From assembly GCF_030012215.1 (NCBI RefSeq), contig NZ_JASCXX010000010.1, positions 62,001-126,000 of the forward strand: a DNA stretch of 64,000 nucleotides, in the 5' to 3' direction. The DNA comes from Anaerobaca lacustris. GTDB lineage: Bacteria > Planctomycetota > Phycisphaerae > Sedimentisphaerales > Anaerobacaceae. Made by a program: the position numbers and the translations under genes. Below, piece after piece: positions 8,050-44,453 of the stretch (position 1 is its first letter; every line of letters begins with the position of its first letter). Under the pieces are notes generated by a model, which saw nothing but the letters and a program-made list of their open reading frames with translations, searched no databases and was not told the DNA's origin.

Positions 8050-8250
8050 CGTCCGGCTCCTTCTGACGCGTCGGGGGTCCGGTCCGCAGAACAGCCGGGC
8101 CAGGCCGCCCCGCGAATCGTCGGCATGGGACCGGTCCATGCCCGTCGCCCCCCATCATACCGCTTCGCCCCCGTCCGGATCAAGGGGCATCCCTGTCCCC
8201 TCCGCACTTCGCCTTGTCGCAGCACCGGCCCGGCGTTATGCCCCCCTGTA

Positions 8251-8272
8251 GGGGCGACGCATGCGTCGCCCC
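8251..8272. repeat. 22-bp perfect palindrome, GTAGGGGCGA-type element
   Basis: A perfect palindrome (arm GGGGCGACGCA) preceded by GTA in the 548-bp divergent spacer 8050-8597. It shares GTAGGGGCGA...TCGCCC with elements at 34077-34104 (inside hisC) and 44395-44419. About 20 bp further on, GGCCC-TTAC-GGGCC and CACTACGAAC (about 8281-8305) resemble the repeat block at 14501-14650. Apart from these and the promoter at 8411, no feature was recognised in the spacer. Confidence 0.7.
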
Positions 8273-8410
8273 CGCCATAGGCCCTTACGGGCCCACTACG
8301 AACAGCCTCATCCGACGCCCGATAACAATTGAGGTCTCATAGCTTCCGGCGGCGCCCGCCGTCGCGAATCGCATAAGCCTATTCTATTTGGGCGATTTAG
8401 GAAAAATGAC

Positions 8411-33138: not shown

Positions 33139-33197
33139 CTTCGGCTCGCCGGGCCAATGGATCGAGCCGGGCGATGGAAACGGCGCAGGAACGAACG

Positions 33198-34256
33198 ATG
33201 GGTTACTTTCGAGACAACGTGGAACGGGTGGCGGGGTATACGCCGGGGTTTCAGCCCAGGGCGACGGACGTGGTCAAGCTGAACACCAACGAGAACCCCT
33301 ATCCGCCGTCGCCTGCGGTGATGAAGGCGCTGGCGGGGATCAGGCCGGAGCAGCTTCGGCGCTATCCCGATCCGGTCGGCACCGCCTTCCGCCAGGCGGC
33401 CGCACGCATCCACGGGGTGACACCCGAGAACATCATGTGCTGCAACGGCGGCGACGACCTGCTCAGTATTGCCATCCGGGCTTTCTGCGACGCCGGCAGG
33501 CCGCTCGCGTATCCAGTGCCTACGTACACGCTCTATCCGGTCCTGGCCGCCCTGGAGGACTGCCCGACGATCGAGGTCCCGTTCGACGAGCAGTTCAATC
33601 TTCCGCCGGCCCTGGTCAAGAGCGGCGCGGCGCTGACGATCGTGTGCAACCCCAACGCGCCGAGCGGGACCTGCGTGCCCATCGAAGAACTGGCGTCGCT
33701 GGCCGACGAACTGACGGGCGTCCTGCTGATCGACGAGGCGTATGTGGACTTCGCCGACCGCGACTGCATCGAACTGGTGCGGGAGTTCGACAACGTGATC
33801 CTGCTGCGGTCGTTGAGCAAGGGCTATTCGCTGGCGGGCCTGCGTTTCGGGTACGCCATCGCCGACGCCGCGTTGATCGCCGGCCTGATGAAAGTCAAGG
33901 ACTCGTACAACGTCGATGCCGTCGCCATCGCACTGGCCACGGCGGCGATCGAGGACCAGCCTTACTTCAAGGCAAACGTTGAGAAAGTCCGCGCGGACCG
34001 GGCCGTTCTGACCGAGCGACTGATTGCGCTGGGCTTTGGCGTCCTGGACAGCGCGACGAATTTCGTTCTGGCGACCGTAGGGGCGAAACATCTTTCGCCC
34101 TTACCAGCGGAACGGATTCAGGAGAAACTGGCGAAGCGGAACATCTACGTTCGCTATTTCGATGTCCCGGGACTGGACGACAAACTGCGCATCTCGGTCG
34201 GCACGAAGCAGCAGAACGACAGACTGCTGGCCGCCCTCAAGGAGATCGTGGGATAA
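33198..34256 (+). CDS. hisC: histidinol-phosphate aminotransferase
   Basis: PLP-dependent transaminase (352 aa) converting imidazole-acetol phosphate to histidinol phosphate. Motifs are KLNTNENPYPPSPAV, CNGGDDLLSIAIRAF, CNPNAPSGT, LIDEAYVDF and the PLP lysine in RSLSKGYSLAGLRFGYA. The ATG at 33198 (MGYFRDNVERVAGY) matches the family start. Upstream ATG 33174 is less likely. Near residue 294-302 the sequence VGAKHLSPL is encoded by a 28-bp palindromic repeat inserted in frame where HisC proteins usually have a short surface loop. The last part (NIYVRYFDVPGLDDKLRISVGT) is normal, so activity is probably retained. Confidence 0.94.
   Translation: MGYFRDNVERVAGYTPGFQPRATDVVKLNTNENPYPPSPAVMKALAGIRPEQLRRYPDPVGTAFRQAAARIHGVTPENIMCCNGGDDLLSIAIRAFCDAGRPLAYPVPTYTLYPVLAALEDCPTIEVPFDEQFNLPPALVKSGAALTIVCNPNAPSGTCVPIEELASLADELTGVLLIDEAYVDFADRDCIELVREFDNVILLRSLSKGYSLAGLRFGYAIADAALIAGLMKVKDSYNVDAVAIALATAAIEDQPYFKANVEKVRADRAVLTERLIALGFGVLDSATNFVLATVGAKHLSPLPAERIQEKLAKRNIYVRYFDVPGLDDKLRISVGTKQQNDRLLAALKEIVG
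34077..34104. repeat. GTAGGGGCGA-type palindrome inside hisC
   Basis: Twelve-bp arms (GTAGGGGCGAAA and TTTCGCCCTTAC, one mismatch) around a CATC loop. Same family as 8251-8272 and 44395-44419. It lies wholly within the hisC reading frame and encodes about nine residues. Confidence 0.8.
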
Positions 34257-34310: not shown

Positions 34311-34462
34311 CGAAATACGAAACTCGAATATCGAAATTCGAAACAAGCACGAACGTTCAAAGGCTCCAAAAACGAAACGGCGCCTGCGGCGAGAAGGTTT
34401 GGGACATTGAGATTTCGATCATTCGTTTTTGTTTCGGATTTCGTGCGTCGGATTTCGAGTTT
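34311..34462. repeat. TTTCG-rich imperfect inverted repeat in the hisC-hisB spacer
   Basis: The left arm (about 34311-34354) is rich in CGAAA units, including CGAAATTCGAAACAAGCACG. The right arm (about 34420-34462) is its imperfect inverse (CGTTTTTGTTTCGGATTTCG). They enclose about 65 bp. A closely matching single arm lies at 41918-41960. The element fills most of the 240-bp spacer. Confidence 0.7.
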
Positions 34463-42076: not shown

Positions 42077-44398
42077 ATGAGAGCCGTGCGATTCGCCATT
42101 GTTCTGATTGCCGCCTTGGCTTGCGCTGCGCCGGGGGCCGACTACTTCCCCCTGAAGGAGGGCAACCAGTGGTCCTACGCCATGTCCACCGGCGTGGAGA
42201 TGACCGTCACCGTGGTGGGCCACGCCCAGGTCGGCCCAGTCCGCTGCGCCGTGGTCGAGACCCGCATGGGCTGGCAGACCCAGCGCGATTACATGGCGGC
42301 CGACGCCGAGGGCGTCAAGACCTATATGACCCAAGCCCAGGGCCAGGAGATGCGTTACGATCCGCCGGTCCTGCGGGTCAAACTGCCCGTCCAGGCGGGT
42401 CAGACGTGGACCAGCACCGTCGACCAGGCCGGCATGTCGATCACCACGACGAACCGATGGCTGGGCACCGAGCGCATCCAGACGCCGGCGGGGACATTCG
42501 ACTGCGTCAAGGTGCAGTCGAGCGTGGCCGTTCCCGGCCAGCCGCCGATGGTGTCGGTCAGCTACTACGCCGACGGGATCGGTGGCGTGCGCCAGACGAT
42601 GCAGGCGGGCGGCCAGGAGATCAGCGCGGTTCTGACGGCGACCAACGTCCGGCCGACGCGAACGGCGGCGCCGGCAAGGTCCGCCGAGGTCGCAGGCAAG
42701 ACGAAGTGCCAGCAGTGCGGCACCTTGGCCGAAGTGGGGGCGAAGTTCTGCCCGGCGTGCGGCGCCAAGCTCGTTCAGCCGGCCCCTGTCACGGCGTGCC
42801 CGCAGTGCAGCGCCAAGCTGCCGGCCGGGGCCAGGTTCTGCCCCGAATGCGGACACCGAATCTCCGCCGCAACGGCGGGACCCCAGACGACCGAGCCGAG
42901 CGCGTCGCCGATCGAGACAGGCCCGGCCCTCGAACGGTACCAGTCGCCGGATGGGAAGGTCGTGCTCTACAAACCCACCGACTGGACCGTGGAACAGGAG
43001 CCCCTGGGTGAGGGCGCCTTTGCCCTGTCGGTGACGGAGCCCGAGGAGAAGGCCGCCGTAATCTTCGTGACCTTCCCGACGGACGACGAGATCAAGGATT
43101 CCGTCGTGCTGGCGGCCCGGTGTCTCACGGTCCTGGCGCAGGAGATTCCGAGTCTCCAGGCCACCAACGTCCACTCCACACCCGAACGGGAGCGCACCAT
43201 CGCCGAGATCACCTTGATTGACGATGGGGAAAAGGGCGTCGGTCGCGGCTATTTCTTCCACACGCAGCGGACCGGCACCGTCTACCTTCTCCTGGCCCGT
43301 GAGGACCTGTGGGACGAGGTTCGCCCGACACTGACCACGGTGGCCGCCAACCTCGCCTTCGCACCGGAGGGGGTGGCGACCATTGCGGATCGCGCCCGGC
43401 AGTTCGGCGAACAGGCGCCGAGGCCGCAAGGCGGTCGGGTGCTCTCGCCGGCGGCCATGATCCAGCAGGCCTCTCAACGGCCCGGCCGGCAGGTGCCGCT
43501 GCGTCCGGCGGCCCTGTCCGATCAGTCCTTGACCCTGCAAATCCCGCAGGGCTGGAGTCTCCAGGGCCAGAAGGTTCAGTTCACGACCTTCGACAACCCG
43601 CAGACCAAACAGCGAGGGGTCGGCTCGGGCAGCCATACGATCATCCCCACCCAGTTCCCCGTGCCCGGCACGATCAACGCGCCGTATCAGCCGCCGTTGC
43701 AGGCGCTGGGGCTGGTCCTCGAACTCGGCCAGGTCGGGACCGACCTGCAACTGCTGGGCGAGTGTCCGACGGAGCAGGCGATTCCGGAGGCCGCCGACTC
43801 GATCCGCCGGTTCCAGGCGCAGGGCATGCAGGTCGATGCGAGGCTCATGCATGTGCGGTTCCGAAGCATCGCGACGGGTGCGACGCTTCGCGGGCTGTTC
43901 GCCGTCCAGTGCATCGCCATGCCGATGAGCCCGGTCTGGCAGGTGCTGGCCGACGGCAACTGGGCCCCCGACAATGAATACGACGAGTGGCTGCCGCTGT
44001 ATTTGCGGATCGGCAAGACCACGCAGGTCAACCAGCAGTGGTTCGGCGGCGAGATGCAAAGCCGCTACGCGCGGCAGCAGCAGCTCAACCGGAACCTGCA
44101 GAACTCCATCGCCGAAAGCAATCAGGCGTTCGATCAGTACATGGACACCCTTCGCGACGCCGACCGCAGCCGCGACTACGTCGGCCATATGTGGAGCCAG
44201 ACCACCCTCGGGCAAGGGACCTGGGTGGCTGAGAATGAGGGGGCCAGCGTCTATCGGACGGACTCGTGGGGGATCGAGGGGCCTGAGGGACGGATCGACC
44301 ATCAGGCGTTCAATACGACCAACTTCACCGGGCAGGACCACGGATTGGAGCTGATCGACACCCGCGCCGAATACGAGAAGTACATCGCCAATCGGTAG
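42077..44398 (+). CDS. exported protein with tandem zinc ribbons
   Basis: A 773-aa protein with a signal peptide (MRAVRFAIVLIAALACAAPGA). The N-terminal domain of about 190 residues (DYFPLKEGNQWSYAMSTG...GTFDCVKVQSS) resembles DUF3108-like lipoprotein domains. Two zinc ribbons follow in tandem (CQQCGTLAEVGAKFCPACGAKL and CPQCSAKLPAGARFCPECGHRI, about 212-270). The long C-terminal part (LERYQSPDGKVVLYKPTDW...) has no recognised family. Zinc ribbons in an exported protein are unusual. GGGAGG (42066-42071) supports the start. The TAG stop lies inside a GTAGGGGCGA palindrome. Confidence 0.75.
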   Translation: MRAVRFAIVLIAALACAAPGADYFPLKEGNQWSYAMSTGVEMTVTVVGHAQVGPVRCAVVETRMGWQTQRDYMAADAEGVKTYMTQAQGQEMRYDPPVLRVKLPVQAGQTWTSTVDQAGMSITTTNRWLGTERIQTPAGTFDCVKVQSSVAVPGQPPMVSVSYYADGIGGVRQTMQAGGQEISAVLTATNVRPTRTAAPARSAEVAGKTKCQQCGTLAEVGAKFCPACGAKLVQPAPVTACPQCSAKLPAGARFCPECGHRISAATAGPQTTEPSASPIETGPALERYQSPDGKVVLYKPTDWTVEQEPLGEGAFALSVTEPEEKAAVIFVTFPTDDEIKDSVVLAARCLTVLAQEIPSLQATNVHSTPERERTIAEITLIDDGEKGVGRGYFFHTQRTGTVYLLLAREDLWDEVRPTLTTVAANLAFAPEGVATIADRARQFGEQAPRPQGGRVLSPAAMIQQASQRPGRQVPLRPAALSDQSLTLQIPQGWSLQGQKVQFTTFDNPQTKQRGVGSGSHTIIPTQFPVPGTINAPYQPPLQALGLVLELGQVGTDLQLLGECPTEQAIPEAADSIRRFQAQGMQVDARLMHVRFRSIATGATLRGLFAVQCIAMPMSPVWQVLADGNWAPDNEYDEWLPLYLRIGKTTQVNQQWFGGEMQSRYARQQQLNRNLQNSIAESNQAFDQYMDTLRDADRSRDYVGHMWSQTTLGQGTWVAENEGASVYRTDSWGIEGPEGRIDHQAFNTTNFTGQDHGLELIDTRAEYEKYIANR

Positions 44399-44419
44399 GG
44401 GCGAATGATGATTCGCCCC
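44395..44419. repeat. GTAGGGGCGA-type palindrome supplying a stop codon
   Basis: GGGGCGAAT (44398-44406), loop GATG, ATTCGCCCC (44411-44419), preceded by GTA. The TAG of GTAGGGG (44396-44398) terminates the upstream gene. It sits 35 bp before ruvB. Confidence 0.8.
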
Positions 44420-44453
44420 TTGAAATCTGCGGCCGGTCGTGTAAGCTCTCGCT

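Follow-up and report, generated by a model that had tools for sequence, protein, structure and literature searches.

The palindrome in hisC

The window analysed here is a stretch of 64,000 nucleotides from the genome of Anaerobaca lacustris, designated G000. One of its open reading frames (ORFs), 360 codons long, was identified as hisC by a match of 315.6 bits to TIGR01141 (cut-off 276.6). It contains a palindrome of 28 bases, GTAGGGGCGAAACATCTTTCGCCCTTAC (Table 1), which is read in frame 0 and encodes the residues VGAKHLSPL; an earlier note on this DNA had given sequence, coordinates and in-frame position correctly. The 12-bp arms described there are present, with Watson-Crick pairing in 11 of the 12 pairs and a G.T pair in the remaining one. 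As single-stranded DNA the palindrome folds with -9.7 kcal/mol (z -7.0), and none of 200 shuffled sequences folded equally well. A separate inverted repeat, imperfect (70% complementarity) and with arms of 54 nt, is located between hisC and the next gene (34313-34462); it is rich in CGAAA/TTTCG and does not resemble a repetitive extragenic palindrome (REP).

In an AlphaFold2 model of HisC based on a 33-row alignment (mean pLDDT 93.8; mean of 78 for residues 301-310), residues 302-311 form the link joining strand 297-301 to helix 312-321. The loop is therefore predicted to lie inside the C-terminal part of the protein and not before the C-terminal domain, where it had been placed previously. 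The nearest solved structure, 3hdo, has five residues fewer at this loop.

Table 1. Coordinates of the palindrome, its host gene and the related copies in the window
Feature	Position	Strand	Remarks
hisC, histidinol-phosphate aminotransferase	33174..34256	+	host gene, intact ORF
Probable REP copy in hisC	34077..34104	+	GTAG foot, hairpin GGGCGAAA-CATC-TTTCGCCC, second foot TTAC; encodes VGAKHLSPL(P)
Left arm of the hisC copy, GTAGGGGCGAAA	34077..34088	+	
Right arm of the hisC copy, TTTCGCCCTTAC	34093..34104	+	one G.T pair; separated from the left arm by CATC
Second window copy, centre ACGCATGCGT	8248..8275	+	between divergent called genes
Third window copy, centre AATGATGATT	44395..44422	+	GTAG supplies TAG stop of called gene 42077-44398

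HisC sequences from 30 whole-genome loci and from 12 of a set of 80 loci were aligned (42 rows). The long palindromic loop is found only in four of the six members of the genus (G000, G005, G002 and G003). In all other rows the loop is shorter, as had been claimed for the family, and none of the 42 rows combines the same loop length and sequence with absence of the palindrome. Following the residues NFVLA, the carriers read VGAKHLSPL (G000), VGAKDLSPS (G005), VGAKHFSPL (G002) and VGARHVSPVPPS (G003), as compared with VKTG in G001, VPNG in G004 and VKNG in G036, and the loop is likewise short in the remaining rows. Of ten core hairpin pairs 9, 10, 8 and 10, respectively, are kept in the four carriers, and one stem pair of the G003 hairpin differs from that of G000 on both sides. 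The net gain of hisC amounts to 15 bp or 5 codons (7 codons in G003). A precise 28-bp insertion as previously envisaged does not agree with this figure, which implies that target sequence was lost or trimmed later. The proposed insertion into hisC is nevertheless right in outline.

A dispersed repeat family

The sequence GTAGGGGCGA occurs exactly three times in the window as compared with 0.12 expected occurrences, a number reached in none of 100 shuffles. The additional copy that had been reported at 8251 exists but starts at 8248, and the one at 44395 is not simply intergenic as thought before because its GTAG contains the stop codon of a called gene (Table 1). Element-like sequence at the latter site is also present in G001, G002 and G005. 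When the G000 genome (5.73 Mb) was searched with the 28-mer pattern, 79 sites were found with up to two mismatches and 120 with up to three, against 2 and 16, respectively, for the reversed control. The genome count thus bears out a dispersed family. That the palindrome in hisC arose by chance, in a loop that is merely longer in this genus, is hardly conceivable. Distant HisC proteins do vary by a few residues in the loop, but HisC sequences without the palindrome also lack the extra residues, and a chance origin was rejected in view of the three exact copies in the window, the excess of genomic sites over control matches and the z value of the hairpin.

Common to the copies are GTAG, a 20-nt palindrome GGGCGA-N8-TCGCCC and then a degenerate second foot. 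Oriented matches to GTAG-GGGCG...CGCCC number 109 in G000 and 164 in G002, the reversed control giving none in either genome. The fetched stretches contain 92 distinct sites of G000 and 83 of G002, all chosen for one perfect GTAG half. The most common centres are AGGCATGCCT (28 sites) and ACGCATGCGT (22 sites) in G000, and AATAATCATT and AATCATCATT (13 sites each) in G002. Among the second feet TTGC (13), CTAC (9) and TTAC (8) prevail in G000, and CTAC (15), GTAC (13) and CTGC (12) in G002. The second foot ends in C at 69 of the 92 and 67 of the 83 sites. A strict C[TC]AC foot is present at 11 and 17 sites, respectively, the others being mainly TTGC, TTAC, GTAC and CTGC.

Copy numbers (up to two mismatches) differ widely within the genus, with 158 in G002, 79 in G000, 76 in G005, 31 in G003, 30 in G001 and none in G004. 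G029 is the only genome from outside the genus with many copies (29). The others outside the genus have four at most, and copies are absent from 45 of the 61 genomes.

Location of the copies relative to genes

Genes were called with a home-made hexamer model in 413 kb of G000 (82.8% coding) and 321 kb of G002 (82.2% coding); the G000 stretches comprise the window and the surroundings of copies, and the stretches were picked for their copies. From 136 matches with up to five mismatches in G000, 96 copies were retained on the basis of either a limit of three mismatches or pairing at 12 or more of 14 positions. Sixty of these are intergenic, 16 extend across a gene edge and 20 are inside a gene, and the corresponding numbers for 98 copies in G002 are 56, 17 and 25. 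Since 45 of 194 copies are located inside called genes as compared with about 81% of positions drawn at random from these stretches (81.3% in G000, 80.6% in G002), genes are strongly avoided.

Seventeen lone near-gene copies were selected from the 76 copies of G000 that are not inside genes, and for 16 of them an orthologous site with both flanks was available in G001, G002 or G005. The element or a clear relic of it was detected in at least one relative at 14 of the 16 sites, indicating that the compared copies are mostly old and inherited. Of the other two sites, L171 is empty in both relatives compared, and L168 is occupied by another REP family in relatives: at L168:2017, G000 carries a repeat of the hisC type, and G001 and G005 carry GGTGTGCATTGCACACCCTAC, which is of the GTAGGGTGTGC type. 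In G001 the latter type also precedes another Y1 transposase gene (L200). At L137, L177, L160:17289 and L159 the hairpin centres differ from those of G001 or G005 at the same site and are still largely palindromic, which suggests that one REP may have been overwritten by another. Some copies of G005 or G001 at orthologous sites have a longer centre, around TCCGCCNNNGGCGGA.

Avoidance of genes and presence of most comparable extragenic copies in a relative would also suit a selected functional site such as a regulator-binding site, a terminator or an mRNA-stability hairpin, in which case the hisC copy would be cis-acting. The retention of 8 to 10 of the 10 core pairs in all four hisC copies is in line with such a role. 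We regard it as very unlikely, however, because centres at orthologous sites differ and yet remain palindromic, a pattern more in keeping with a hairpin substrate than with a single fixed site of binding. Moreover, convergent gene pairs do not dominate as they would for two-way terminators: in raw counts of called neighbours, the 60 intergenic G000 copies are located between unidirectional (38), divergent (14) or convergent (7) genes, with one copy left unassigned.

A transposase gene associated with the repeat

Among the called genes holding copies is a 200-codon ORF of G000 (G000:C7:13108-13710; L143:2109-2711, minus strand) whose product matches the REP-associated tyrosine transposase (RAYT) family NF047646 with an E value of 2.1e-14 and 53.6 bits, which is below the curated cut-off of 80; the match to Pfam Y1_Tnp is weak (E 0.0054) and likewise below cut-off. 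A homologue in G002 (G002:C77) is 84% identical and passes the Y1_Tnp cut-off (25.8 versus 23 bits). Both genes have the repeat at or just past both ends and one further copy in frame inside, after MPNHxHG. A transposase gene linked to the repeat is thus present in the G000 genome, and in this respect the earlier note, which took the repeat as possibly mobile, is supported. By inspection, the G000 protein contains MPNHVHG (HUH motif), RRYTADNP (Y motif) and WQRNYYEHVIR. In the last of these, the GTAG-recognition residues W, Q, E, H and R are spaced like W94, Q95, E100, H101 and R104 as quoted in PMC6006769.

RAYT homologues are present in 15 of 61 genomes searched, and the same search detected none at E <= 1e-8 in G001, G003, G004 and G005. 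For G005, G003 and G001, with their 76, 31 and 30 copies, this counts against RAYT-mediated spread; these genomes are draft or incomplete, or the gene was lost. Eighteen RAYT loci were inspected (24 search rows minus 6 second pieces). GTAG-tagged stem-loops occur in the fetched stretch at all 18, and at 14, including G000:C7 and G002:C77, one or two of them are located in frame after the HUH motif. By eye, most of these in-gene stem-loops match the flanking ones of their locus in sequence type.

A link to the Y1 transposases found with Pfam was rejected. The Y1_Tnp search gave 44 matches in 12 genomes, and a good copy of the repeat was next to the gene at none of the 30 loci scanned. One copy was about 1.2 kb away (L206), and two loci had matches with four mismatches only. 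A Y1 transposase gene of G001 pairs with another repeat, GTAGGGTGTGCATTGCACACC. A second RAYT gene of G000 (G000:C48:12310-12975) is accompanied by a different set of REPs (GTAGGGGCAGGCC, GTAGGGGCAACC), two of which are in frame inside the gene.

Judged by its features, the palindrome in hisC very probably is a GTAG-type REP of the TnpAREP/RAYT 'subclass 2.4' (group 4) that was inserted by RAYT. The enzyme would act on GTAG in single-stranded DNA and insert the hairpin unit, and copies that reach genes would survive only where a loop, linker or N-terminal leader is tolerant and the frame is kept.

Reading frame of copies inside genes

Copies inside genes show the strong in-frame bias anticipated for such a repeat, with 41 of 45 in frame 0, four in frame 1 and none in frame 2. 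The tally has limits: four sites are orthologous between the two genomes and enter it twice, some of the G000 genes are paralogous, 14 of the 45 copies are so close to the gene start (within the first 10% of the gene) that a misassigned start codon could matter, and feet may have changed since insertion. The typical reading in frame 0 is V-G-A-x-x-x-S-P-L. Taking both strands of the 96 G000 copies, 190 of 192 readings are open in frame 0, 143 in frame 1 and 76 in frame 2. Stops originate from the TAG of the foot in frame 2 and from TGA or TAA of AT-rich centres in frame 1. Twenty-six of the in-gene copies could be read through in at least two frames, and 22 of them are nevertheless in frame 0 as compared with 10.8 expected (P 6e-6); stop codons thus explain the preference only in part. 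Our guess for the rest is that the peptide encoded in frame 0 is better tolerated. A 1209-codon ORF of G002 (L421:883-4512, minus strand, on G002:C62), which we take to be AddB-like from its sequence, contains three separate in-frame copies.

A putative role of the repeat as protein-coding filler, as considered in the earlier note, would be compatible with the data. GTAG and the 20-nt hairpin together comprise 24 bp, that is, eight codons, and one might go further and regard the repeat as a ready-made cassette for insertion into proteins, with frame 0 open in nearly all copies. We consider this quite unlikely. If it were true, many proteins of a lineage would be supplied again and again with the same short, soluble loop by RAYT-driven spread, and the part of the frame-0 excess that stop codons leave unexplained would reflect tuning of the repeat for harmless or useful translation.

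Filled and empty orthologous sites

Sixteen of the 20 in-gene copies of G000 were compared with 65 orthologues picked by hand among the matches listed, and 14 of the 16 copies were also compared as DNA; left out were hisC, the RAYT gene and two of three copies in one gene cluster. With hisC included, the element is present in at least one relative at 10 of 17 sites and in G000 alone, among the relatives compared, at 7. A ClpN-domain protein has EVQG or a similar sequence in six relatives and VGANHDSPVPG in G000 (+21 bp; five compared as DNA). The thiG gene is filled in G000 (+39 bp) and in G002 (+24 bp) relative to G001 and G005, with centres of different type, and is empty in G001, G003, G004, G005 and G036. 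The gene for a GntP permease is filled in G000 and G005 and empty in G002, G003 and G036 (+21 bp versus G002, +18 bp versus G003), a beta-lactamase-like gene is filled in G000 and G005 and empty in G002 and G004 (+15 bp), and a gene for a MinD-like ATPase is filled in G000, G005 and G002 and empty in G004 and G036 (+18 bp for G000). In a BlaR1/ClpN-type gene of 1949 codons the element stands in place of sequence of equal length. Alignment is less sure for the N-terminal cases and for the linker of an AAA ATPase; close to the latter, G001 carries a copy in a different frame.

Taken together, net length changes at the in-gene sites were 0, 9, 12, 15, 18, 21, 24 or 39 bp. An insertion of fixed length is thus not seen today, and a clean 28-bp insertion was rejected for the same reason. 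A gain of 24 bp fits at two sites, thiG of G002 and the extragenic site L171, with gap-edge alignments that are uncertain. Such variation might arise if another copy had been the source of the hisC sequence through template switching or gene conversion, in place of transposase-mediated insertion. The equal-length replacement in the BlaR1/ClpN-type gene, the fact that most other gains are below 24 bp, and centres that seem to have been swapped at orthologous sites are compatible with this route. We consider it unlikely nonetheless, since gains at empty sites, such as the +21 bp in the ClpN-domain gene and the +24 bp in thiG of G002, need an insertion step.

Two further genes show related features. 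The L139 gene has in-frame copies at two places, near the N-terminus in G000 and between GST and LWWASSG in G002 and G005. At L300 of G005, a poly(A)-polymerase-like gene has GCGGGGGCCCCAC where G000 has the element. This sequence has the appearance of two arms that collapsed on removal of the part between them, and it is possible that it reflects deletion of the hairpin.

HisC, ThiG, the ClpN-domain protein, the GntP permease and the MinD-like ATPase represent natural before-and-after pairs for the entry of a REP into conserved proteins, which make both the mode of REP insertion and the tolerance of proteins directly testable. Where unrelated proteins of such genomes have peptides resembling VGANHDSPL or VGARHASPL, REP entry would also explain these peptides; they might otherwise be mistaken for motifs.

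History of the hisC copy

Trees were computed with IQ-TREE for five genes. The rpoB tree joins G001 and G005 (support 100); it does not include G003, where no rpoB was found. By contrast, G000 and G005 are joined in the trees of hisC without the insert (84) and of hisB (75). The ORF after hisB, presumably ispF, weakly joins G000 and G001 (66), and so, with a support of 99, does another neighbouring gene that is partial in G001. All five trees place G002, and also G003 where included, outside the group of G000, G001 and G005. G001 therefore does not have an insert that is present in both its inner and outer relatives.

The hisC copies of G000, G005 and G002 have a common AAA...TTT centre. This centre is found at 2 of the 92 sites of G000 (hisC included) and at 1 of the 83 sites in the G002 stretches; these do not cover the hisC copy of G002, which is among the 164 oriented matches of that genome. 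The rarity of the centre speaks for a single insertion, after which the G001 allele was replaced. On the basis of these sequence comparisons, the hisC copy is probably older than the split of the congeners carrying it and arose once, and the element-free allele of G001 was most likely acquired by recombination. Being shared by four of six congeners, the copy is old and points to no recent jump; the mobility considered for the repeat in the earlier note is, as far as the present is concerned, unsupported.

Alternatively, the hisC copies might go back to parallel insertions at one preferred target. G001, although nested among carriers, has the short VKTGSA, which resembles VKNGSA of the outgroup genus (G036) and so looks ancestral, and thiG offers a precedent, being filled at about the same place in G000 and G002 with different centres and net lengths and empty in the five other genomes named above. 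Parallel insertion is unlikely; it would require three independent draws of an AAA...TTT centre that, by its frequency at the G000 and G002 sites, is rare. We therefore prefer a single ancestral insertion.

Comparison with known REP systems

Searches of the literature by repeat motif yielded nothing relevant. According to Quentin et al. 2018 (PMC6006769), REPs of subclass 2.4 have a GT[AG]G foot directly at the hairpin and a stem starting with three G-C pairs, and comprise a 'double foot' type with C[TC]AC at the 3' side and a type without it. The same paper describes a RAYT gene that is flanked by the repeat and contains REPs in frame between the HUH and Y motifs of the transposase. Several of these traits recur here: the GTAG foot adjoins a long hairpin whose stem opens with three G-C pairs, and the RAYT gene is flanked by repeats and has an in-frame REP between the two motifs. 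A strict C[TC]AC second foot is present in part of the copies, at 11 of 92 and 17 of 83 sites, and in G000 TTGC (13 of 92) is even more common than CTAC (9 of 92), which we count against our assignment.

Di Nocera et al. 2013 (PMC3733652) report GTAG and CGTC palindromes within ORFs, many of them recombination or repair genes, and describe GTAG as providing TAG stops to neighbouring ORFs. The copy at 44395 with its TAG stop corresponds to the latter observation. Small palindromes within ORFs are likewise encountered here, as in the three-copy G002 gene that we assumed above to be AddB-like. In contrast to that account, whose consulted sections do not name hisC, filled and empty orthologous sites are available here. 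Rickettsia palindromic elements (RPEs) also are palindromic repeats located in frame within protein genes. According to PMC3733652, RPE-4 and RPE-6 belong to the CGTC type of repeat, which lacks a linked transposase; the hisC repeat differs from them in being GTAG-tagged and linked to a RAYT gene. Both the REP type and its in-frame setting inside genes are thus already published (PMC3733652, PMC6006769). Because in-gene REP events of this kind are known, the hisC case is ordinary in kind but well resolved, and what is new here, as far as the literature searched shows, is this resolved comparative case of hisC together with its companion genes.
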